Shown piece by piece: positions 7,448 through 18,444 of a DNA stretch of 64,000 nt. Below the pieces are notes generated by a model, which saw only the letters and a list, made by a program, of their open reading frames with translations, made no database searches and was not told where the DNA came from. Source of the stretch: Streptomyces sp. RKND-216 (GTDB taxonomy: Bacteria > Actinomycetota > Actinomycetes > Streptomycetales > Streptomycetaceae); the NCBI RefSeq assembly GCF_004795255.1, contig NZ_SSBQ01000002.1, positions 2,623,501 through 2,687,500 of the forward strand. The letters run 5' to 3'. Position 1 is the stretch's first letter. Each line of letters opens with the position of its first letter. The position numbers and the translations under genes were made by a program.

Positions 7448-7813
7448 GTGGCGCTGTTCGGGAACGCACACACCATCGACGCGGGGAAGGCGCAGCAGGA
7501 CTACGGGCGGCTGCTGGGGAACGGCGAACGGGTGCACGTGGCGTACCAGTTGGTCCGGGACGTCATCCTCTTCACCGACCGGCGGCTGATCCTGGTCGAC
7601 AAGCAGGGGATCACCGGCAAGAAGACCGAGTACCACTCGGTGCCCTACCGGAGCATCACGCACTTCTCGGTGGAGACGGCCGGCACCTTCGACCTGGACG
7701 CCGAGCTGAAGATCTGGCTCTCGGGGAGCCCGGCGCCGATCGAGAAGACGTTCACCAAGGGCGTCGACATCTACGAGGTGCAGGCCGTCCTCACCCAGTT
7801 CGTGGCCCGGTAG
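7448..7813 (+). CDS. Bacterial PH-domain protein
   Basis: 121 residues, entirely one bacterial pleckstrin-homology domain (bPH_1 type). Recognisable stretches are AYQLVRDVILFTDRRLILVDKQG, KTEYHSVPYRSITHFSVETAG and a C-terminal helix ending VQAVLTQFVAR. No signal peptide or membrane segment. The role of these proteins is not established; some associate with stress or membranes. GTG 7448 is preceded by GAGAGGGGG at good spacing, and frame sense begins there. It lies about 100 bases after the DUF72 gene on the same strand. Confidence 0.85.
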   Translation: MALFGNAHTIDAGKAQQDYGRLLGNGERVHVAYQLVRDVILFTDRRLILVDKQGITGKKTEYHSVPYRSITHFSVETAGTFDLDAELKIWLSGSPAPIEKTFTKGVDIYEVQAVLTQFVAR

Positions 7814-8202: not shown

Positions 8203-8808
8203 TCAGGGGCCGGCGACGAGGCGGTTGGCGGCGGCGGCCTTGGCGGACTCCAGCAGCGCGAGGAGCACGTTCTTGCTGGAGCTGCGGTGGCGGACGTCGC
8301 ACATGATGACCGGCGCCGGGGTGCGCAGGTTGAGGGCGGTGCGAATCTGGTCGGTGCTGAACTCGCGGCGTCCGTAGAAGCAGTTGACACCCACGGCGAA
8401 GGGGATGCCGCGCTGCTCGAAGAAGTCCACGGAGGCGAAGCAGTCGCTCATCCGGCGGGGGTCGGCGAGGACGACGGCGCCGATGGCGCCGAGCGAAAGG
8501 TCGTCCCACATGAACCAGAAGCGGTCCTGGCCGGGAGTGCCGAAGAGGTACAGGACGTGGTCGGCGTCCAGGGTGATGCGGCCGAAGTCCATGGCGACCG
8601 TGGTGGTCTTCTTGTCCGGCGTGCCGGCGAGGTCGTCCACGCCGAGGCTCGCCGTGGTCATGTACTCCTCGGTCTCCAGTGGGGCCACTTCGCTGACCGA
8701 GCCGATCATGGTGGTCTTGCCGACGCCGAAGCCGCCCGCGATGAGGATCTTCAGTGCCGTCGGCATCGCGACGGGGCCATCCATCCGGTCAGAGTTCGCG
8801 TATACCAC
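8203..8808 (-). CDS. cvnD: Conservon GTP-binding protein CvnD
   Basis: About 201 residues, a small Ras/Arf-like GTPase of the type found only in conservons. The P loop is GGFGVGKTT (about residues 26-34), the switch-II region is FGTPGQDRF and a late motif is VNCFYGR. It is the fourth gene of cvnABCD. GTG 8808 overlaps the end of cvnC by 20 bases, so translation is likely coupled. In S. coelicolor, conservon proteins form a membrane-associated complex resembling a G-protein-coupled receptor system, with CvnD as the nucleotide-binding part. No cytochrome P450 gene (cvnE) follows, unlike in some conservons. Confidence 0.92.
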   Translation of the reverse strand: MVYANSDRMDGPVAMPTALKILIAGGFGVGKTTMIGSVSEVAPLETEEYMTTASLGVDDLAGTPDKKTTTVAMDFGRITLDADHVLYLFGTPGQDRFWFMWDDLSLGAIGAVVLADPRRMSDCFASVDFFEQRGIPFAVGVNCFYGRREFSTDQIRTALNLRTPAPVIMCDVRHRSSSKNVLLALLESAKAAAANRLVAGP

Positions 8809-9172
8809 GAATGACCCTTTCCAGTAGTTCCACGCTCGGTGCGCCGGACTCCGTGCCGGGCACCTTGATGGTGATCATCGATCTGTCGAGCAGGTCGCCG
8901 CAGAGCACCTTGACGACGCTCGGGGGGAGGTCCAGGCGGGCGGCGACCTCGGCGACCGCCAGCGGCCGCTCCCGGCAGAGTTCGAGGATGGCCGCCGACT
9001 CCGACTGGTCCACGTACCCGGGCGGCAGCATCGAGGGTCCGGTGGCTCTGACCAGCGTGATCAGGGTGAAGTCGGACCGGTCGTGGCTGGTGCGTCCCTG
9101 GGTGACCGTGTAGGGCCGAACGAGGTAGCCGGCCCCCTCGTCGAACCACGGCCTGTCCTTCGGAATGCTCAA
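8789..9172 (-). CDS. cvnC: Conservon DUF742 protein CvnC
   Basis: 127 residues, DUF742. Typical features are the N-terminal LVRPYTVTQGRT motif and a winged-helix-like C-terminal half (AAILELCRERPLAVAEVAARLDLPPSVVKVLCGDL). The role is unknown beyond membership of the conservon complex, where it is thought to link CvnB and CvnD. The TTG at 9172 shares bases with the cvnB stop (TTGA), so the start is placed by overlap and by the family's usual N-terminal length. It overlaps cvnD by 20 bases. Confidence 0.88.
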   Translation of the reverse strand: MSIPKDRPWFDEGAGYLVRPYTVTQGRTSHDRSDFTLITLVRATGPSMLPPGYVDQSESAAILELCRERPLAVAEVAARLDLPPSVVKVLCGDLLDRSMITIKVPGTESGAPSVELLERVIRGIREL

Positions 9173-9597
9173 TTCCCCCTGCTGTGCCCGTGGGAGGCGA
9201 CCTCCGTGCGTGGTGCGGCACTGAGGTATTCCCCGACCTTCTGAACGATCATCGCCATTTCGTAGGCGGCTATCCCCGCGTCCACCTGATCCGATGCCAG
9301 GACGGCCAGTCGGGCACCGTATCCGGCATTGGTCACGAAGAGGAAGGCGTTGTCCATCTCGATCACGGTCTGCCGGACCTGGCCACCGGAGAAGTGGCGG
9401 GCGACGCCGTGCGAGAGGCTCTGCAGTCCGCTGGCGACCGCGGAGAGGTGCTCGGCGTCGTCACGGGCCATGCCCTCCGACCAGGCCAGCGTCAGACCGT
9501 CCTGGGAGAGCAGGATGGCGTGGTGCACTTCGGGAACACCGGCCACCAGATTGTTGAGAAGCCAGTTCAGGTCGCCGCTGGCGGTGGGCTGGGTCAT
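9169..9597 (-). CDS. cvnB: Conservon roadblock/LC7 protein CvnB
   Basis: 142 residues, a roadblock/LC7 domain: LNWLLNNLVAGVPEVHHAILLSQDGLTLAWS near the start, then QTVIEMDNAFLFVTNAG and a C-terminal amphipathic helix. Roadblock proteins regulate small GTPases, which fits CvnD as partner. ATG 9597 is preceded by GAGGAAG with normal spacing. It lies 16 bases after cvnA and its stop overlaps the cvnC start. Confidence 0.92.
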   Translation of the reverse strand: MTQPTASGDLNWLLNNLVAGVPEVHHAILLSQDGLTLAWSEGMARDDAEHLSAVASGLQSLSHGVARHFSGGQVRQTVIEMDNAFLFVTNAGYGARLAVLASDQVDAGIAAYEMAMIVQKVGEYLSAAPRTEVASHGHSRGN

Positions 9598-9613
9598 CGT
9601 CGTGTGTTCTTCC

Positions 9614-11857
9614 TCAAGATTCCTGGGAACCGGTGCCGTACTCCGGCCTGTCCATCGGCGCCTCGTGACCGCCGGCGGGGGGTGCCGGCGTCGAGGGCGT
9701 GGACGACGAAGCGGGCGATGGGGGCGGAGGGGGCGGAACGGGCCGCGTGTTGCGTGCACGCCGGTTGGCCGACTGGATCGCGCCGATGGCCGCGCCCGCC
9801 CTGTCGGGGGACGGCGGGCCGGCGCTCTCCGGCGACTCGTTCGGCGAACGGCGCAGCGGAGCGGCGAGGTTCTCGCCCCGGACCCGGGTCGGGAGGGTCT
9901 TCGGCATGGCGATCCCGTCCGGCCCGGGAGGGCTGTCGGCAGAGGCGGCGGAGGGCTCGGGAACCCGCTGGGCCGACGGTGCGGAGGTGCGCTGGGGAAG
10001 GGGAGGCGGAGGCGGCGCGGCGGAGGTACCGCTGCCGTGGTCGGGCCCGCGGCCGTGGTCGCGGCCGTATTCGGGTGCGGCGCCGGGGCCGTGCCCGGGT
10101 CCGTCCTCAGGACCCGGGTAGAGGCCGGCACCGCCGGACATGCGGGCGGAACCGTGGCCGTAGCCACCGCCGTAGGCGCGGTCGCGACCCTGCTCGGGGC
10201 CCTGCCCGGACGGAAGTCCGGGGGTGTGCCCGGCGGTCCGGGCGTAGGCGGGTTCGAGCGAGGGGCCGGAGCCGTACGAGGCGGCGGGGGCCGGGGCGTG
10301 TGGTGCGGGTGCCGGATCTGCGGCCGGGGGCTGCTCGGAGCGCGCGGCCGCCTCCGATATGCCCGCGTCCGCGGCCGGTTCGTCAGTGCTTGGCAGAAGA
10401 CCTGCACCTCCGTACGAGGGGAAGCCGTCGCTGTCGTCGCTCGCGGACGCCACGGCGGCCATGGTCATGCCTGATCCGCTCCCCGCCCCCGCGGGTGCCG
10501 GACCGGCGGATGCCGCTGCGGCCGGGGCCGGGAAGGCCGGGGCCGAGGCGGCGGCGGGGAGCACGGAGGCTGCCGCCGGTTCGGCGGGCAGCGTCGTCTC
10601 GCTCACCGAGGAGGACGCGCCCAGGAGCCCGGCACCGGCCGGCATCGGCCGGTCGGCGCTCTCCTGGCGCCGGTCCACGATGCTGGACAGCAGCGACTTG
10701 GTCTCCTCCAGCAGTTCGTGCGGCAGCAGCACGATGGCCAGCGTGCCGCCGTAGTGGGAGCGGCGGAGGGAGACTTCGAGGTGGTGCCGGCGGGCGAGGC
10801 GGGCGACCACGAAGAGGCCGAGGCGCGGAGTCTCGCCCAGCGACATCATGTCGAGGCGGGGCGGCTCGGACAGCAGCCGGTTGATGTGGGCGTACTTGGC
10901 TTCCGGCATGCCCAGGCCGCGGTCCTCGACCTCGAGGGCGAGGCCGTTGGCGACGTGGGAAGCGCTTACGGAGACCTTGGTCTCCGGCGGGGAGAAGGCG
11001 GTGCCGTTCTCGATGAGTTCCGCGAGCAGGTGCACGACGTCGGCGACGGCCGGACCGACCAGGGACACCTGGGGGGCGGGCTGGGCGTCGACGCGGCGGT
11101 AGTCCTCGGTCTCGGATATCGCGCTGCGCAGCACTTCGTAGATCGGGACGGCCCGGCTCCAGCGACGCACGGGCGGGGCGCCGCCGAGGATGACCAGGTT
11201 CTCGGTGTGCCGGCGGACGCGGGTGGCGAGGTGGTCGACCGCGAAGATGTCCTTCAGCAGGTCGGAGTCGTGATGCTTGCGTTCCAGCTCGTCCAGCTTG
11301 GGGATGAGACGGGAGATCAGCACCTGGGTGCGGCGGGCCAGTCCGAGGAACACCTGCTCGGATCCCTCGCGGCCGCGGGCCTGCTCGGCGAGGGTGTCGC
11401 CGACGGATTTGCGCAGCTGGTGCAGCGCGTAGGCCATGGCCCCGACCTCGTCGTCGCCGTGGCTGCGGTCCGGAGCGGGCTCCTCGGGGAGCTTCTTGTC
11501 GCCGGTGGTGAGCTGCCGTACGAGCTGCGGCAGTCCGGTTCCGGCCAGTTCCACGGTCTCCTGGTGGAGCCGGTGGAGGCGGCCGGTGAGGCCACGGGAG
11601 TACCGCCAGACCAGCAGGCAGGTGGTGATGAGCACGGCGCCGGCGACGATGCTGCCGATGGCGACCCACATCACCAGCTCGTCGGCACGCGCCGGGTTCT
11701 CCTCGGTCTGCCGTTCGACGACCAGCGCGGTGGCCGCGAACGCCCAGAGCCCGACGAGAACGATGACAGGCGTCACTGTCAGCAGGACGAGCGAGTGTGT
11801 CAGGGACTTACCGTGCACGGCTCTGTGTGCCGTAGGCCTACTTGACAAACCTGGCAT
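9614..11857 (-). CDS. cvnA: Conservon sensor-kinase-like membrane protein CvnA
   Basis: 747 residues. Two transmembrane segments (about 22-45 and 62-85) flank a very short extracellular loop of under 20 residues. A HAMP-like stretch, a helical region and an HATPase domain follow, with the N box ELIENGTAF (about 280) and G box EDRGLGM (about 313). The last 330 residues are Pro/Ala/Gly-rich and probably disordered. I see no clear phospho-acceptor His of a normal H box, as is usual for CvnA proteins. It is the presumed signal-receiving membrane anchor of the conservon. ATG 11857 is the first gene of the operon; the 256 bases upstream must hold the promoter. Confidence 0.9.
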   Translation of the reverse strand: MPGLSSRPTAHRAVHGKSLTHSLVLLTVTPVIVLVGLWAFAATALVVERQTEENPARADELVMWVAIGSIVAGAVLITTCLLVWRYSRGLTGRLHRLHQETVELAGTGLPQLVRQLTTGDKKLPEEPAPDRSHGDDEVGAMAYALHQLRKSVGDTLAEQARGREGSEQVFLGLARRTQVLISRLIPKLDELERKHHDSDLLKDIFAVDHLATRVRRHTENLVILGGAPPVRRWSRAVPIYEVLRSAISETEDYRRVDAQPAPQVSLVGPAVADVVHLLAELIENGTAFSPPETKVSVSASHVANGLALEVEDRGLGMPEAKYAHINRLLSEPPRLDMMSLGETPRLGLFVVARLARRHHLEVSLRRSHYGGTLAIVLLPHELLEETKSLLSSIVDRRQESADRPMPAGAGLLGASSSVSETTLPAEPAAASVLPAAASAPAFPAPAAAASAGPAPAGAGSGSGMTMAAVASASDDSDGFPSYGGAGLLPSTDEPAADAGISEAAARSEQPPAADPAPAPHAPAPAASYGSGPSLEPAYARTAGHTPGLPSGQGPEQGRDRAYGGGYGHGSARMSGGAGLYPGPEDGPGHGPGAAPEYGRDHGRGPDHGSGTSAAPPPPPLPQRTSAPSAQRVPEPSAASADSPPGPDGIAMPKTLPTRVRGENLAAPLRRSPNESPESAGPPSPDRAGAAIGAIQSANRRARNTRPVPPPPPPSPASSSTPSTPAPPAGGHEAPMDRPEYGTGSQES

Positions 11858-12113: not shown

Positions 12114-13295
12114 TCACATGGCTGCGAGCAGTTGCGGGGTGTAGAGCGCCTTGATGGTGGCGGCTCCGGCGACGATGTCGAAGTAGGTGGCGGTGAGCTC
12201 CGCGTCCTTGGCGACGGCGCGCAGCAGGGTGAGCCGCTGATCGTGCACCTCCAGCCGGGCGGCGGACAGCGTGCCCTGGTAGCCGTCGTTCAGCGCCTCG
12301 TCGCGCTCGAGCGCATAGCCGGTGAGTGCGGCGTCCAGCCCGGCGGGATCGTGAAGGTCGGCGCCGACGTGCCGGACCAGGCACTCGGCCTGGAAGAAGG
12401 CGTCGCTGATGCCGCGCGCGGTGATGGAGTCCTTGTGGTGACCGGCGTCGCCGACCAGGGCCCAGCCGGGGCCGGCTGCCTGCCGGAAGTAGTTCTGCTG
12501 GTCGCCGGTACCGCGCAGCCGCTCCATCGGCAGCCGGCCGCGCAGCCGGTCGGCGAGGGCGGGCGCGGTGGTGCGTATCTGCTCGAGGTAGGCGCGCTGC
12601 GCGTCGGTGCGCACCTCGTCGAAGCGGTCCTGCGGGAAGTAGGCGAGCACCAGCGTCGCGGCATCGTTGGTGGGGACGGCGGCCACCCAGGCGCCGGGAC
12701 GCTCGTACAGCTCGAAGCAGGCGGGGACGTCGTCCCAGTAGGAGTAGTACGCGCAGGTGAGGCGCGGGTCCTCGACGGTGAAGGGGGACTCGACGAGCCG
12801 GGCGACGGTGGAGCGCATGCCGTCCGCGCCGATGACCAGCGGCGCGTGCTCGGTGAAGCGCCGGCCCCCGTAAGTGCCCTGCACACCGACGACGCGTCCG
12901 GTCTCGTCGTGCAGGAGGGCGTTCACGGAGCAGCGTTCGCGGACCTCGACGCCTGCTTCGGCCGCAGCCTCCACCAGCAGGGCGTCGAGCACGCGGCGGC
13001 GTGGAGCGTAGCCCGCACGCTGGCCGTCGACGCCGTGGCCGCAGCCCTCCAGGCGGACGTCCGCGACCTCGTAGACGGCCCGTTCCAGCGGCGGGCAGCC
13101 GGTGGCGCGCAGCCGGTCGAGCAGACCCCAGCGGGCGAGCGTGGCGACGCCGGGCTGGTGGATGAGGTGAGTGGAAAGGGTGTCGGACGGGAACTCCGCC
13201 CGGTCCATCAGCAGCACCCGGTATCCGGCGCGGGCGAGCAGCATGGCCGTCGGGGAGCCCGCGCAGCGGGCGCCGACCACGATGGCGTCGAACAT
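12114..13295 (-). CDS. FAD-dependent oxidoreductase of the biosynthetic trio
   Basis: 393 residues from ATG 13295, which has GTGAGG about 8 bases upstream; GTG at 13328 is an alternative. The N-terminal FAD-binding Rossmann motif reads VVGARCAGSPTAMLLARAGY, and the second FAD motif is GWALVGDAGHHKD. This is the PHBH/geranylgeranyl-reductase-like flavoprotein group (hydroxylases, dehydrogenases, halogenase relatives). The tryptophan-halogenase WxWxIP motif is not intact (WVAAVP stands near that place), so I do not call it a halogenase. It lies 81 bases after the adenylation gene on the same strand and probably modifies the product of that pair. The substrate is unknown. Confidence 0.8.
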   Translation of the reverse strand: MFDAIVVGARCAGSPTAMLLARAGYRVLLMDRAEFPSDTLSTHLIHQPGVATLARWGLLDRLRATGCPPLERAVYEVADVRLEGCGHGVDGQRAGYAPRRRVLDALLVEAAAEAGVEVRERCSVNALLHDETGRVVGVQGTYGGRRFTEHAPLVIGADGMRSTVARLVESPFTVEDPRLTCAYYSYWDDVPACFELYERPGAWVAAVPTNDAATLVLAYFPQDRFDEVRTDAQRAYLEQIRTTAPALADRLRGRLPMERLRGTGDQQNYFRQAAGPGWALVGDAGHHKDSITARGISDAFFQAECLVRHVGADLHDPAGLDAALTGYALERDEALNDGYQGTLSAARLEVHDQRLTLLRAVAKDAELTATYFDIVAGAATIKALYTPQLLAAM

Positions 13296-13376
13296 GTACG
13301 GCCTCACAGGTCTTCGGGGCGTGCTCACGGGGGCGTGCTCACAGTGCTCTCGCGGTTCACGTGGTCCGCCCGGGCT

Positions 13377-14966
13377 TCACCGGGCCGTCGGCACGGACTG
13401 CCCGACCCGGGCGAGCACCGCGTGGCGGTCGATCTTGCCGTTGGTGTTGTGCGGCATCTCGGCCAGCACCTCGATACGCCGGGGCAGCATGTACTCCGGC
13501 AGCCGGCCGCGCAGTCCGGCGAACAGGGTGTCCGCGTCGAGACCGGTGCCGGTGACGGCGGCGACCAGTTCCTGCTGGCCGTCCGGTCCGGGGACGGCGA
13601 CGACGGCGGCCTCGGTCACACCGGGCCGGGTGCGCAACGGGCCCTCGACCTCGCCGAGTTCGATGCGGTAGCCGCGGACCTTGACCTGGTGGTCGGTGCG
13701 GCCGAGGTGCACCAGCCCGAAGTCCTCCCGGGCCACCCGGTCGCCGGTGCGGTACCAGTGCGCCTCGGTGAGCGGCCCGCTGCCGTCGTACGGGTGGACG
13801 GTGCCGTCGTCGTCGATGGCGAGGAAGCGTCCGGCGTCGTCGGCGGCGTCCAGGTAGCCGGGGAAACGCTGCGGACCGCGTACCAACAGCTCCCCGACGT
13901 CGCCCGGCCGGCCCTCCTCGTCGAGCACCACGACCTCGGTGGTGGGGTACGGCTCGCCGATCGGCATGGTGCCGTTCGGCGTCTGGGGCCAGTCCTCGAC
14001 ACTCGGGCCGGGGCGGTACTGGGTGCAGGAGATGGTGGTCTCCGTCGGCCCGTACAGCACTTCGAGGGTGGAGCCGGGCGCGGCGGCCTGCCAGGCGCGG
14101 GCCAGCGGCGCGGGCAGCGCCTCGCCGCCGAAGATGCTCCAGCGCAGGTCAGGCATGCTGTCCGGGCGCAGGGTGCCCAGCCTTGAGGCGAACGACGCGA
14201 TCGCGGGCACCGAGAACCAGTGCGTGAGGCGGCGGGAGTTGACGAACTTCACCGGCGCCATGAGCTGCGCCTGGGTGGGGACCACCAGGGTGCCGCCGGA
14301 GGCCCAGGCGACGAACAGGTCGTGTACCGAGCCGTCGAAGGTGAGCTCGAAGGACTGGGAGAGCCGGGAGCCCGGCCCGATGGCGTACCGCTGCGCGACG
14401 TGCGCCAGGTGGGTGCAGATGTTGCGGTGCAGGACCGGCACGCCCTTCGGAGTGCCGGTGGAGCCGGAGGTGAAGATCACGTACGCCACGTCGTCCGGTC
14501 CCGCCGGTCCTGGCTCGGCGGCGACGGTGGCGACGTGGTCGGCGCCGGGAGTGACGTCGTCCCGGTCCAGGACCAGCAGCGGTACGCCGGTCTCCTTCCC
14601 GGCCTCGGCGTCCTCGGCGACCGTCAGGTCGAGGCCGGCCGCCCCCGCGACGGCCGCGTTGCGGCCGGGCGGGAAACCCGGGTTGAGCGGCACCACGGTG
14701 GCGCCCGTGCGCAGAATCGCGAGGTAGCCGACGTATGCGGCGACCGTGCGGCCGGCCAGCAGGCCCACCCGGCGGGGCGGCGCTCCGGCGGCGGCGGTGA
14801 GACGGGCGGCGGCACGGTCGGCGAGATGCCGCAGCTCGGCGTACGTCAGGCGGTCGTCGCCGATCTCCAGGGCGATGGCGTCGGGGTGGGCGGCCGCCGC
14901 ACGGGAGAAGACCTCGTAGAGCGTTCTCGGTGCGGTGGTGCTCGCGATGGTGCTCGCGGCGGTCAT
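13377..14966 (-). CDS. Free-standing adenylation (AMP-forming) enzyme
   Basis: 529 residues, NRPS-type adenylation domain with no attached carrier or condensation domain. Core motifs: FTSGSTGTPKG (about 162), FDGSV (A4), YGPTETT (A5), YRTGD (A7) and C-terminal NTNGKIDR with the catalytic Lys (about 511). Against the GrsA PheA pocket I read the ten specificity positions as D-G-H-S-I-G-L-I-S-K. The first Asp suggests an alpha-amino acid, but I know no substrate for this code. The ATG overlaps the stop of the KS gene (ATGA), so the two are translationally coupled and the adenylate is probably handed to that protein's carrier domain. Confidence 0.88.
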   Translation of the reverse strand: MTAASTIASTTAPRTLYEVFSRAAAAHPDAIALEIGDDRLTYAELRHLADRAAARLTAAAGAPPRRVGLLAGRTVAAYVGYLAILRTGATVVPLNPGFPPGRNAAVAGAAGLDLTVAEDAEAGKETGVPLLVLDRDDVTPGADHVATVAAEPGPAGPDDVAYVIFTSGSTGTPKGVPVLHRNICTHLAHVAQRYAIGPGSRLSQSFELTFDGSVHDLFVAWASGGTLVVPTQAQLMAPVKFVNSRRLTHWFSVPAIASFASRLGTLRPDSMPDLRWSIFGGEALPAPLARAWQAAAPGSTLEVLYGPTETTISCTQYRPGPSVEDWPQTPNGTMPIGEPYPTTEVVVLDEEGRPGDVGELLVRGPQRFPGYLDAADDAGRFLAIDDDGTVHPYDGSGPLTEAHWYRTGDRVAREDFGLVHLGRTDHQVKVRGYRIELGEVEGPLRTRPGVTEAAVVAVPGPDGQQELVAAVTGTGLDADTLFAGLRGRLPEYMLPRRIEVLAEMPHNTNGKIDRHAVLARVGQSVPTAR

Positions 14967-17044
14967 GCGGCCTTCGCCTCCAGGCCGGAGATCCACGCGC
15001 GGAAGGCGCGCACGGTGCGCAGCTCCGCCAGGTCTTCGATGTCGACCTCCAGCCCGTGCTGTTCGGCCAGCTGGAGCACGATGCCGAGGCGGGCGAGGGA
15101 GTCGATGCCGATCTCCGCGAGCTGCGAGTCGTCCGAGTAGGCGGTACGGGCGTGTTCGCGCAGCACCCGGCCGGCGAGGTCCGGCGTCTCGCCGTCCACG
15201 TCCAGGTCGGGGGTCTCGCCCGCCCAGTAGCGGCGTGTCTGCCAAGCGTAGTGCGGCAGCGGCACGAAGCGTCCGGTCTGCGGGAACACCTCGGCCCAGG
15301 GCGGGAGTACGCCGGCCCGGTACTGCTCGGCGGCGGCCTCCAGCAGCTCCCGGCGCTTGACGTCGGCGGACCGCAGGCCCAAGTAGCGCTCCGCCATGCT
15401 GGCCAGTGCGCCCTTGCGCCGCTCCTGGCCGGCCGGCGGTTCGGCCGGCGGGACGGCGTCCGGCACGGCGGCGACCTGGAGTGCTTCCGCCAGTTCCTCG
15501 TGGGTGGCGCCGATCACGGCGATCCGGTGCTGGTGGTGTTCTCTGCGGGTGGCGGCGCTGAAGCAGACGTCAGCCAGGGGAAGGACCGAGCCGCGCCCGC
15601 CGGGGGACAGGTAGCGGACGTACGCCTCGCCGAGGTCGGCGAGCGCCTGCGGCGAGCGCGCGGACACGACGAGCAGCTGTGGCTCGGCGCCTTGTTCCGG
15701 AGCGGGCGCCAGCGCCGGATCGATCGCACGGGTCTGGCCCTGGCTGAGCACCAGGTGGGCGTTGAGGCAGGACGCGCCCTGACCGGAGACACCGGCCAGC
15801 AGCGGCCGTTCGCGGCCGGAGAGGTCCTGCGCTTTGGCGGGCAGCTCCAACGGGAGTTCGTCCCAGGGGACCAGCGGGTTGGGGGTGTCGAAGTGCAGGT
15901 TTCCGGGGACCTGCTCGTGCTCCAGACACAGCACGGTCTTGATGAGGCCGGCGATGCTTCCGGCCGCTTCGGCGTGCCCGATATTGGTCTTGACCGATCC
16001 GACCAGGCAGGGCCGCTCCGCGGGCCTGCCCTCGCCCAGGACGCGGCCGAGCGCACCGAGTTCGAGGGGGTCGAGTGAGGGCGAGCCGGTGCCGTGCGCC
16101 TCCACGAAGTCGATGTCCGCCGGATTCACCCCGGCATCCTCGTACGCCCACCGCAGTACGTCCAGTTGCCCCTCGAGGGAAGGCAGCAGAAGCGAGTCGC
16201 CGGTGCCGCCGTCGTTGCCGACGGCGCTGCCGCGGATGACGGCGCGGATCCGGTCGCCGTCGGCGAGCGCGGCGGCCAGCGGCTTGAGGACGACCACGCC
16301 GACCCCGTCGCTCGGCGAGTAGCCGTCTGCGCCCGCGTCACCGAACTTGCTGCGTCCGTCGCGGGCGAGAGTGCCGGCCTGGGTCATCATCACGCCCTCG
16401 TCGGGACGCAGCGGGATGTTGACGCCTGCGGCAAGGGCGAGGGGTATTTCCCCGGCGCGCATCGCCTGCACGGCGGAGTGCACGGCGGAGAGCGACGAGG
16501 AGCAGGCGGTGTCGACCAGGATGCTGGGGCCGCGCAGGTCGAGGGCGCGGGAGACGCGTCCGGGCAGCAGGGGGCGGAAGTTGTGGAAGTACGAGGGCGC
16601 GACGGCCTCGAGGCCCTGACGGAACTGGATCTCCAGGTAGTCGGCCCGGGTGTTGCCGACGTAGACGCCGGTGCGGCTCCCCGCGAGATCGCCGGCGCAC
16701 TGGCCTGCGTCCTCCAGCGCCTCCCAGGACGTCATGAGCAACAGGCGTGCCTGCGGGTCGAGTTCGGCGGCCTCGGTGGGGGACATGCCGAAGAACTCGG
16801 CGTCGAAGTCGCCGGCCCCTTCGACGTAGCCCGCCCGGCGGGCGGCGAGGGTACCGGGCTCGGACCCGGCGGAGTAGAGGGCTTCGACGTCGTAGCGTTC
16901 CGCCGGGGTCTCGCTCGTCGCGTCGATACCGGCCTCGAGTAGTTCCCACAACCGATCGGCGTCCGCCGCACCGGGGAACCGGCAGGCCAGGCCGATGACA
17001 GCCACGGAGCGCTCATCGACATCTCCTGCGGACCTGCCACCCAT
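14963..17044 (-). CDS. AT-less polyketide synthase: ketosynthase-linker-ACP
   Basis: 693 residues. The ketosynthase (about 12-430) has the full triad: DTACSSS (Cys about 181), HGTGS (His about 317) and NIGHAEAAGS (His about 355). The usual KS-AT linker follows (TRREHHQHRIAVIG), but the acyltransferase core is absent. The sequence passes straight to the post-AT linker (VPLPHYAWQTRRYW, about 600) and then an acyl carrier domain with the phosphopantetheine site GIDSLARL (Ser about 648). There is no KR, DH, ER or thioesterase. It probably condenses an extender loaded in trans, or one supplied by the coupled adenylation enzyme. The HGTGSPSLDP stretch departs from the common HGTGTxLGDP. ATG 17044 follows AAGGAGAG. 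Confidence 0.88.
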   Translation of the reverse strand: MGGRSAGDVDERSVAVIGLACRFPGAADADRLWELLEAGIDATSETPAERYDVEALYSAGSEPGTLAARRAGYVEGAGDFDAEFFGMSPTEAAELDPQARLLLMTSWEALEDAGQCAGDLAGSRTGVYVGNTRADYLEIQFRQGLEAVAPSYFHNFRPLLPGRVSRALDLRGPSILVDTACSSSLSAVHSAVQAMRAGEIPLALAAGVNIPLRPDEGVMMTQAGTLARDGRSKFGDAGADGYSPSDGVGVVVLKPLAAALADGDRIRAVIRGSAVGNDGGTGDSLLLPSLEGQLDVLRWAYEDAGVNPADIDFVEAHGTGSPSLDPLELGALGRVLGEGRPAERPCLVGSVKTNIGHAEAAGSIAGLIKTVLCLEHEQVPGNLHFDTPNPLVPWDELPLELPAKAQDLSGRERPLLAGVSGQGASCLNAHLVLSQGQTRAIDPALAPAPEQGAEPQLLVVSARSPQALADLGEAYVRYLSPGGRGSVLPLADVCFSAATRREHHQHRIAVIGATHEELAEALQVAAVPDAVPPAEPPAGQERRKGALASMAERYLGLRSADVKRRELLEAAAEQYRAGVLPPWAEVFPQTGRFVPLPHYAWQTRRYWAGETPDLDVDGETPDLAGRVLREHARTAYSDDSQLAEIGIDSLARLGIVLQLAEQHGLEVDIEDLAELRTVRAFRAWISGLEAKAA

Positions 17045-17403
17045 CGGAACTCTCCTTCACTGCGTTGTGTGCTTGTTTCTTGACCGGCCGTCGACAAGCG
17101 AACCCGCCAATGATCAATGACGGAAGCGCATACGTGAACCCGGAGGACGCGAGCTGAACCACACACTCCGGTTTTACCCGGGGGGCCGATTGTCCTACGC
17201 AAGGACGAATCAGGCCCATCGGCATGAAGCCAACTGGCGCAAAGTCACCGGGTGTCGGTTAAACACGCAGGACTGTGGACAGCCTGAGAGATTGACCACA
17301 CGGCAACTGATACCGGCATGTGCCTGCGGCAGCAGTCACCGCTTGTCCCCGATGTTGCCCGGGGGGCGGTGCGGAAGACGATATTCTGGTTTCATGGGCG
17401 GCC
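17045..17403. promoter_or_regulatory. Divergent intergenic region between the KS-ACP gene and the GAF gene
   Basis: 359 bases separate two divergent starts, so it should hold both promoters. It is more AT-rich than its surroundings. I see no inverted repeat long enough to name an operator and no RNA gene. A short TATTCT-like box lies about 25 bases before the GAF gene start. Confidence 0.4.
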
Positions 17404-18444
17404 ATGGACCCCCTGACGCCCGATCAGCCTGATGACGCCGAGCGGCGTCGGCGACGCCTGCAGCGCCTCGGCCTCAACGCACCGGACCCCGAAGCCGAAT
17501 TCGACCGCACGGCGCGGATCGCCGCAAGCCTGACCCAGGCTCCGCTCGCCATGGTCAACTTCATCAACGACAAGCAGCAGATGTTCCGCGGCATGTACGC
17601 CCCGCGGTCCGGAGACGACGACGGCCAGGAGCGTCGCGCCGTCTCCTTCGACCTCAGCGACATCCCGGACATCCCCCGCTCCGCCCCCACCGACTACGGC
17701 TTCTGCCCGCACGTCGTCGCACAGGGCGCGCAGCTCGCCCTCGACGACGTCTTCGACTACCCCCGCTTCAAGGGCAACCCGCTGGTCAACGAGATGGGCG
17801 TGCGGGCCTACCTCGGTACGCCGCTGCGCGACCACACCGGCGTCATCCTGGGCACGGTGTGCGTCGCCGACATGCGGCCCCGCGAGTGGGACCGCGGCGT
17901 GAAGGAGAGCATGCAGCAGCTCGCCGAGACGCTGCTGTCGGAGTTCCGCCTGCGCGACAGCCTGCTCACCCAGCAGGAGGAGATGTTCGCCGTCTTCGAC
18001 GGCGCCCCCTGGCCCATCATGCTCACCGAGGGCCCCAAGCACGTGCTGCGCTACGCCAACGGCCGCCAGGGCGACGCGTTCGGCCGCGTCCAGCGCCTCA
18101 GCGAGGGCCGTACGGTGCTGCCCGGCCTGGACACGGTCGGCGTCTTCAAGGCGATGGACGACGCGTACCGCACCGGCCAGACGACCACCCTGGCGGAGGC
18201 GCGCCTCATCACGCGGGACGCCGACACCCCACAGACATACTCCTTCACCTGCACTCCGGTGCGCCTCTCCCCGAACGCCCCGGTCAGCGGCATCCTCACG
18301 GTCGCGATGAACGTCACCTCGCGCCCGGCGACGGAGGACCCGCAGCAGGTGGCCGCCGAGTTCACGCAGCAGCTCGCGCAGTTCGGAACCGGCGACGGGT
18401 GGACGCAGCAGCACGGCGGCCCCAGCGGCATGTACCTCCGGTAA
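17404..18444 (+). CDS. GAF-domain sensor protein
   Basis: 346 residues from ATG 17404. A GAF domain covers about residues 25-180 (ASLTQAPLAMVNFIND, then DYGFCPHVVAQGAQLALDDV and VRAYLGTPLRDHTGVILGTVC). A PAS-like region covers about 190-310 (EEMFAVFDGAPWPIMLTEGP). There is no kinase, phosphatase or DNA-binding domain, so it is a stand-alone sensor or adaptor. The FCPHVV motif, with Cys and His at a typical ligand position, would fit a small-molecule or redox ligand, but that is a guess. It is transcribed away from the biosynthetic trio and convergently to cobN. Confidence 0.82.
   Translation: MDPLTPDQPDDAERRRRRLQRLGLNAPDPEAEFDRTARIAASLTQAPLAMVNFINDKQQMFRGMYAPRSGDDDGQERRAVSFDLSDIPDIPRSAPTDYGFCPHVVAQGAQLALDDVFDYPRFKGNPLVNEMGVRAYLGTPLRDHTGVILGTVCVADMRPREWDRGVKESMQQLAETLLSEFRLRDSLLTQQEEMFAVFDGAPWPIMLTEGPKHVLRYANGRQGDAFGRVQRLSEGRTVLPGLDTVGVFKAMDDAYRTGQTTTLAEARLITRDADTPQTYSFTCTPVRLSPNAPVSGILTVAMNVTSRPATEDPQQVAAEFTQQLAQFGTGDGWTQQHGGPSGMYLR

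Follow-up and report, generated by a model that had tools for sequence, protein, structure and literature searches.

Streptomyces sp. RKND-216 is an actinomycete of the family Streptomycetaceae with a genome of 5.61 Mb (G000; G and L numbers are our handles for genomes and loci), of which a stretch of 64,000 nucleotides, here termed the window (contig NZ_SSBQ01000002.1, positions 2,623,501 to 2,687,500 of the forward strand), was analysed. The window carries a trio of minus-strand biosynthetic genes set between regulatory genes. The first (14963–17044) encodes a ketosynthase–linker–acyl carrier protein (KS–ACP) of 693 residues, in which Pfam finds the N- and C-terminal ketoacyl-synthase domains (KS at approximately 15887–17011), a CurL-like polyketide synthase (PKS) C-terminal linker and a PP-binding domain (the ACP, approximately 14990–15136), and no acyltransferase (AT). 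The motifs DTACSSSL, VEAHGTGSP, VKTNIGHAEAAG and GIDSLAR can all be read, as can the post-AT linker VPLPHYAWQTRRYW, and KAsynt_C_assoc lies marginally under its cut-off (32.8 against 33 bits). The second gene (13377–14966) encodes a stand-alone amino-acid adenylation (A) enzyme of 529 residues that has AMP-binding and AMP-binding_C domains, passes the TIGR01733 model for amino acid adenylation domains (331.8 bits against a cut-off of 317.4) and displays the pocket DGHFIGLIS. The third (12114–13295) encodes a FAD-dependent oxidoreductase (here FMO, for flavin-dependent monooxygenase) of 393 residues from an ATG, or 404 from an alternative GTG start at 13328; it contains FAD_binding_3 and is assigned to the PlyE/ArtE type by comparison with ArtE. 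An initial annotation, made from the letters of the window, had described just such a set of KS–linker–ACP protein, free A enzyme and flavoprotein, with the KS triad (Cys/His/His) and the ACP serine intact, the AT-flanking linkers kept and the AT itself absent, and the domains, motifs and family alignment bear this description out. It had also called the three genes coupled, which holds for the KS and A genes, since in all 22 loci compared their ends share 4 bp; the FMO gene stands separate, 81 bp beyond the A gene (48 bp with the GTG start).

The same annotation had seen no regulator adjacent to the trio, which is incorrect because a conservon lies downstream and a divergent GAF-domain gene lies upstream. 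The conservon (8203–11857, four genes, all minus strand) starts 256 bp beyond the FMO gene and consists of a CvnA-type histidine kinase-like membrane protein with HATPase_c and no NIT domain (9614–11857), the roadblock/LC7 protein CvnB (9169–9597; PF03259, Robl_LC7, 88.9 bits), the DUF742 protein CvnC (8789–9172; PF05331) and the Ras-like small GTPase CvnD (8203–8784; PF03029, ATP_bind_1). This is the domain make-up of a conservon, its order is kept in relatives, and from that order CvnA-B-C-D are predicted to form one operon. On the plus strand, divergent from the KS gene, lies the gene of a CvnF-like GAF protein with a PAS-like C-terminal region (17404–18444); its open frame begins at 17320, and the start in relatives corresponds to about 17404. 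No thioesterase is encoded in this block of eight genes, and the ACP of the KS–ACP protein is the sole carrier seen in it. A scan for defence systems with PADLOC gave no match for six block proteins (all but CvnB and the DUF742 protein).

The arrangement is conserved, and in Streptomyces the block runs from the divergent GAF(-PAS) gene through the trio to the genes for CvnA, the roadblock protein, the DUF742 protein and the Ras-like GTPase. Of 295 genus genomes, 22 (the window's own among them) yielded a KS of the trio family (at least 684 bits); the next KS matches reach at most 534 bits and are mostly located within the reading frames of larger synthases. All 21 relatives from this survey were fetched as loci, and counts of 22 refer to these plus the window. 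Every one of the 22 loci has the KS, A and GAF genes, and 21 have the FMO, CvnA and CvnB genes, as L044 ends at a contig border after its A gene. CvnD was called in 20 loci and DUF742 in 15, lower counts that we ascribe partly to a simple gene caller missing small genes and to the ends of the stretches. Carriers of the block include S. hygroscopicus ATCC 21589 (L085) and S. zhaozhouensis CGMCC 4.7095 (L068). The initial annotation had proposed a search for co-occurring homologues, and this search returned the KS–A pair in 21 of the 21 related loci and the FMO in 20. Genes outside the block vary among most loci and are common to a few close pairs. Just past the conservon of the window lies a bPH_1 (bacterial PH-domain) gene (7448–7813), which is 69% identical to a bPH_1 gene of Saccharopolyspora kobensis (L081, 5910–6284); the latter lies immediately upstream of a trio that has no conservon, and coincidence is possible.

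The full-length GAF protein (at least 345 bits) occurs in 23 of the 295 genus genomes, after which the next match drops to 167 bits, and the same 23 genomes hold both the KS and the long GAF protein (the KS survey scored the best three candidates per genome, the GAF survey the best six). Twenty-two of them are the genomes of the KS survey; in the 23rd, G144, a contig starts inside a family KS gene (a fragment, 70% identical) that adjoins the GAF gene. These 23 co-occurrences are not 23 independent events, because the genomes are related. When a GAF profile was run against 197 genomes of the order, six matches were obtained, two of them previously known; three of the remaining four come from the genus, each of them adjoining KS–A–FMO genes, and since one of these (G712) corresponds to L106, two are new. 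When the whole class was searched with the KS at a threshold of E 1e-170, family members turned up in 2 of 394 genomes, both belonging to the window's genus, the only one of 137 genera represented; the distant KSs of Saccharopolyspora and Actinomadura probably fall outside this threshold. A second collection was made up of named loci, namely the best 80 of at least 338 confirmed FMO relatives, some of which come from the same genomes as the first set. The trio is held by 34 of the 80: all eight genes were detected in 24, seven in L071 (with CvnA below the detection threshold), L074 and L098 are cut by contig ends, and seven loci have the trio only. The other 46 lack a full trio: in six, whose contigs are short or cut at an end, an FMO gene lies beside a conservon gene, and in 40 the FMO occurs without the rest. 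Enzymes and sensor are thus genetically linked, and chance adjacency of trio and regulators is ruled out by the recurrence across loci and the co-occurrence of GAF protein and KS. Signs of a shared operator upstream of the KS gene were weak and were not used: the best spaced words were common to 5 of 15 sequences (from 19 extracted), and five mononucleotide shuffles yielded up to 4.

CvnF is the GAF protein placed after CvnD in conservons (PMC8510531, PMC13343842). Judged by its sequence, the GAF protein of the block is CvnF-like, because its single-GAF relatives share the place and make-up of CvnF: 12 of the 12 fetched (chosen from 50 listed) lie directly after CvnD in a conservon. It is longer than CvnF, which is mostly one GAF domain, by about 150 C-terminal residues. 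The GAF domain was found in 14 of 14 members scanned and PAS_4 weakly in 5 of the 14, the window's own falling below the cut-off at E 0.005. In a model of middling confidence (pLDDT 62.6), the order of helices and strands in the C-terminal part is PAS-like, and Foldseek lists PAS chains (3k3c) for this model, with poor superposition; VIA-align covered nearly only the GAF part, so that the PAS-like part was barely probed. The CvnD GTPases of the block, taken from 29 loci, form one clade against 20 others (support 100/99). When the CvnD of genome G672 is added, support is 99/98 for a group of block plus G672 and 79/67 for the block by itself. A likeness can be drawn to Cvn8 of S. coelicolor (CvnA8–D8 plus CvnF8), in which a Cvn core and a GAF accessory also lie beside biosynthetic genes (PMC13343842, PMC8510531) and CvnF8 binds and stimulates CvnA8, with the CvnF8 ligand yet to be determined (PMC13343842). 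In contrast to CvnF8, the GAF protein of the block has the extra PAS-like region, is divergently encoded and is separated from the conservon by the trio; and whereas the neighbour of Cvn8 is a lanthipeptide cluster, that of the block is the enzyme trio.

The KS–ACP protein combines conserved catalytic residues with the lack of an AT of its own. The active-site Cys, the first His and the Lys are kept in every KS row of the family alignment that covers them, and GIDSL of the ACP is kept in all rows covering that site. Two AT sequences used as tblastn queries (E up to 1e-4) matched none of the 59 stretches formed by the window and 58 loci (some genomes being represented twice), whilst the positive control was matched; the initial annotation had raised the possibility of an AT elsewhere in the operon of close relatives, and the stretches fetched from relatives contain none. 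Elsewhere, the window's genome encodes a free FabD-like AT of 343 residues, other ATs and phosphopantetheinyl transferases. An alignment of the KS with cis-AT and other KSs, also proposed at the outset, groups it with cis-AT and not trans-AT lineages. In a quick tree, which had Shimodaira–Hasegawa-like (SH-aLRT) support only and a small set of references without a named trans-AT KS, the trio KS is placed among KSs of AT-bearing synthases, and a trans-AT lineage was rejected on this position; the KSs of the AT-less locus at 1.01–1.04 Mb of the same genome branch elsewhere. Because its sister is the KS of a synthase with the order KS–AT–dehydratase (DH)–ketoreductase (KR)–ACP–ACP, the trio KS–ACP is most simply read as a cis-AT module that lost its AT. 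This sister synthase (approximately 2270 residues, in other genomes of the genus) differs from the trio protein in having its own AT, DH and KR, as scanned in L148, where a gene that is KAS III-like (3-ketoacyl-ACP synthase III) by sequence appearance adjoins it. The KSs of Saccharopolyspora and Actinomadura trios nest within those of the Streptomyces blocks, again in the quick tree. The genome of RKND-216 also encodes a 2725-residue synthase with carrier, KS, AT, class III aminotransferase and condensation domains (L145, 8322–16499; contig 2, at about 1.52 Mb).

The A enzyme varies little among trios. Of 57 A rows from trios (a number that counts some genomes twice), 37 have the pocket DGHF[VI]GL[IV]S and the remaining 20 depart from it by small changes; the Asp235 equivalent is present in all 57. 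The Gly, Lys and Asp of the GKxD stretch, which contains the Lys517 equivalent, are invariant in 16 of 16 rows; in the 57-row pocket alignment the Lys was appended, not read. As the pocket barely changes, these sequences suggest one fixed or nearly fixed substrate. Amongst familiar NRPS codes, the pocket letters are nearest to one for isoleucine, a likeness that counts as no test. In a comparison with solved structures, the first to match as a single stretch is IdnL7 (6akd, 279 bits), ranked behind LgrA, 8xjz and 8k4r. IdnL7 resembles the trio enzyme in being a stand-alone adenylation enzyme for small amino acids, with Gly, Ala and Ser as substrates; unlike the trio it works in a macrolactam pathway (PMC11253843), and the two were compared by overall match, not by pocket.

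The flavoprotein was correctly classed by the initial annotation, and can now be placed more narrowly, as it is 54% identical over 377 residues to the FMO of locus L129, which is ArtE of the aurantimycin locus. Indeed the contig of L129, AOPZ01000014, is the one given for aurantimycin (PMC5031334), and its gene order and sizes (71, 218, 530, 76, FMO, 2882) fit ArtA–ArtF (71, 240, 530, 77, 395, 2882). For the PlyE/ArtE family, N-hydroxylation of carrier-bound amino acids has been proposed (PMC3943440, PMC5031334). PlyE is the proposed N-hydroxylase of Ala and Val held on a free peptidyl carrier protein (PCP) that is charged by a stand-alone A enzyme, and mutation of plyC, plyD or plyE led to loss of the product (PMC3943440); the homologue Lun21 is assigned to isoleucine. 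PlyC–PlyD–PlyE of polyoxypeptin and ArtC–ArtD–ArtE of aurantimycin therefore resemble the trio as sets of A enzyme, carrier and FAD oxidoreductase, and the gene setting fits a predicted action of the FMO on an aminoacyl group charged to the carrier by the partner A enzyme. The differences are that the Ply and Art carriers are free PCPs within large non-ribosomal peptide synthetase (NRPS) clusters, whereas that of the trio is an ACP fused to a KS; that the block has no further NRPS or PKS module; and that the A enzyme of the trio shares only about 32% identity with ArtC and has another pocket. The best matches of the FMO in a structure library are halogenases and other FAD monooxygenases, including PqsL. 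WxWxIP is a motif of flavin-dependent halogenases, and the identity of a halogenase was rejected for the FMO, which has WVAAVP where 8zop (called a halogenase) has WLWYIP.

Several other gene sets were seen around FMO relatives. In Actinophytocola, Actinacidiphila and Amycolatopsis (L086, L097 and L102; FMO at 10001–11191), KS-less A/FMO sets occur in which FMOs 68–70% identical to that of the trio lie with an acyl-CoA dehydrogenase, an A enzyme and a thioesterase; L086 and L102 add a free carrier protein, giving a second minimal set of A enzyme, carrier and FMO with no KS. L099 (Amycolatopsis kentuckyensis) resembles the L086 type, with its genes only partly called. In L103–L105, L110–L112, L116 and L119, FMO relatives (approximately 60–63%) lie less than 10 kb from stand-alone KS genes, and L110 has an HMG-CoA synthase-like gene (by Pfam) with small carrier-like genes and a KS, reminiscent of beta-branching sets.

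The genetic linkage suggests that the enzymes make, or respond to, the signal used by the conservon sensor. The trio probably makes a small molecule derived from an amino acid, and it is likely that trio and G-protein system are functionally coupled in one direction or the other; given such coupling, the odds that the product is the ligand are about even. The reading that we favour, with a probability of roughly 40%, is that the trio is the minimal A/KS–ACP/flavoprotein synthase of a GAF(-PAS) conservon system, its product being read by the GAF(-PAS) protein. The A enzyme would activate a single alpha-amino acid, always the same and either small or branched, and load it onto the ACP of the KS–ACP protein, and the PlyE/ArtE-type FMO, going by its family, would then hydroxylate the aminoacyl thioester, most likely on nitrogen. 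The KS would take over the aminoacyl group, FabD or a different AT acting in trans would supply the emptied ACP with malonyl, and the intact KS residues would permit one decarboxylative condensation. Because the block is without a thioesterase, release of the resulting gamma-amino-beta-keto thioester by cyclisation is proposed, which would give, for example, an N-hydroxy tetramic acid or a 1,2-oxazinone of about 150–175 Da; with valine or isoleucine as the substrate, a single extension, N-hydroxylation and ring closure, the predicted [M+H]+ would be 158.081 or 172.097. The divergent GAF(-PAS) protein would sense this product and pass the signal to CvnA and thence to the CvnB/C/D GTPase switch. 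The short aminoacyl-polyketide that the initial annotation had suggested as the product is still tenable and plausible. Valdiazen of Burkholderia, made by the ham cluster, is reportedly a tiny signal derived from N-oxidised valine, and is akin in being a small signal from an N-oxidised amino acid; as other enzymes and another phylum are involved, it serves as an analogy only. The stricter version, in which the block is a self-contained cassette whose trio synthase makes the dedicated ligand of a Ras-like G-protein (conservon) system through the GAF-PAS protein, is put forward tentatively.

A number of observations weigh against this reading, both as chemistry and as signalling. The pocket letters of the A enzyme by themselves name no substrate; the carrier has the ACP-like motif GIDSL, and that the A enzyme loads it is a prediction. 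N-hydroxylation by PlyE, ArtE and Lun21 is itself a proposal, based on mutants and product structures, and Sky39 is a stand-alone glycine alpha-hydroxylase (PMC9321520, PMC10204066), and the trio FMO may alternatively act in this way. In Streptomyces sp. HNM0575 (L032, 8469–10517, and L095, 6117–8165, which are the same strain) the second catalytic His of an otherwise intact KS is replaced by Tyr (NIGY for NIGH), and the KS of L084 was called as two pieces. Another possibility is that the trio only oxidises an amino acid, with the A enzyme loading, the FMO hydroxylating and the KS serving as an acyltransferase or off-loader without malonyl extension. In its favour, PlyC/D/E works without a KS, as L086, L097 and L102 would by their gene content, the block encodes no AT, and the KS of HNM0575 has lost the second His; all four residues (Cys, His, Lys and His) are kept in the other KS rows that cover them, however, and extension is the default role of such an enzyme, which makes oxidation alone rather unlikely. 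It can in any case be combined with either regulatory reading.

With regard to signalling, the NIT domain is present in 19 of 21 block CvnA calls, whereas CvnF overwhelmingly accompanies CvnAs without NIT (PMC13343842). The CvnA of the window, which lacks NIT yet is accompanied by GAF-PAS and trio, counts in favour of the main reading; in L031 the CvnA frame is broken upstream of 4018, so that its N-terminus is not judgeable. Rare KS or GAF copies may also have been missed in the surveys because of the limit on candidates scored per genome. As Cvn8 represses the adjoining lanthipeptide cluster (PMC13343842), the trio may be an output and not the source of a signal, that is, a small cryptic cluster (for an antibiotic, metallophore or similar) controlled by a GAF(-PAS)/conservon system that senses something else. 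Two further findings suit this account, which we regard as a real possibility, if short of probable. G672, from another family of the order, has a GAF protein (48%) and a complete conservon with a sister CvnD but no trio (L192, 5152–10816; best FMO-profile match 64 bits, best KS match 31% identity in a search for the trio), and the ligand of the sensor can hence be of other origin. Because the G672 CvnD groups with those of the block, the sensor module probably existed both with and without the trio, and L192 likely represents a state before trio insertion or after trio loss. Conversely, seven trio loci (Saccharopolyspora and Actinomadura) have no conservon or GAF gene within about 10 kb, from which it follows that the trio product can be useful without the sensor. 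The link to a specialised GAF-PAS protein in 23 of 23 genomes, together with a dedicated CvnD clade, is tighter than expected of a mere regulatory target, without excluding one. The same seven loci tell against the enzymes themselves being the sensory input, with the FMO or KS–ACP signalling its redox or precursor status to CvnA through protein contact and without a diffusible product playing a part; the intact KS residues, ACP serine and near-constant A pocket likewise favour a real product. This idea draws on the CvnE P450 accessories, which go with CvnAs lacking sensory domains and of which CvnE11 has been modelled contacting the HATPase domains of CvnA11 (PMC13343842), and we consider it improbable.

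Each part of the block belongs to a known family, and the combination is, to our knowledge, new. The initial annotation knew of no named pathway with this exact set of enzymes, and neither a characterised match nor a description of the gene set was found in the open-access literature; the alkyloxazole signal cluster aox was rejected as a match, since it comprises a thioesterase, an O-methyltransferase and an NRPS (PMC13367870). The block would illustrate how a cis-AT KS module can be reduced to KS–ACP and joined to an amino-acid oxidising set. Distinguishing between models of CvnF8 has been judged hard until its ligand is determined (PMC13343842), and for finding out what conservon G-protein systems sense the block offers a small and testable system. 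If the trio does make the ligand, no actinobacterial G-protein system would have had a ligand source named for it before, and the trio would represent a new route to a hormone-like signal in Streptomyces.

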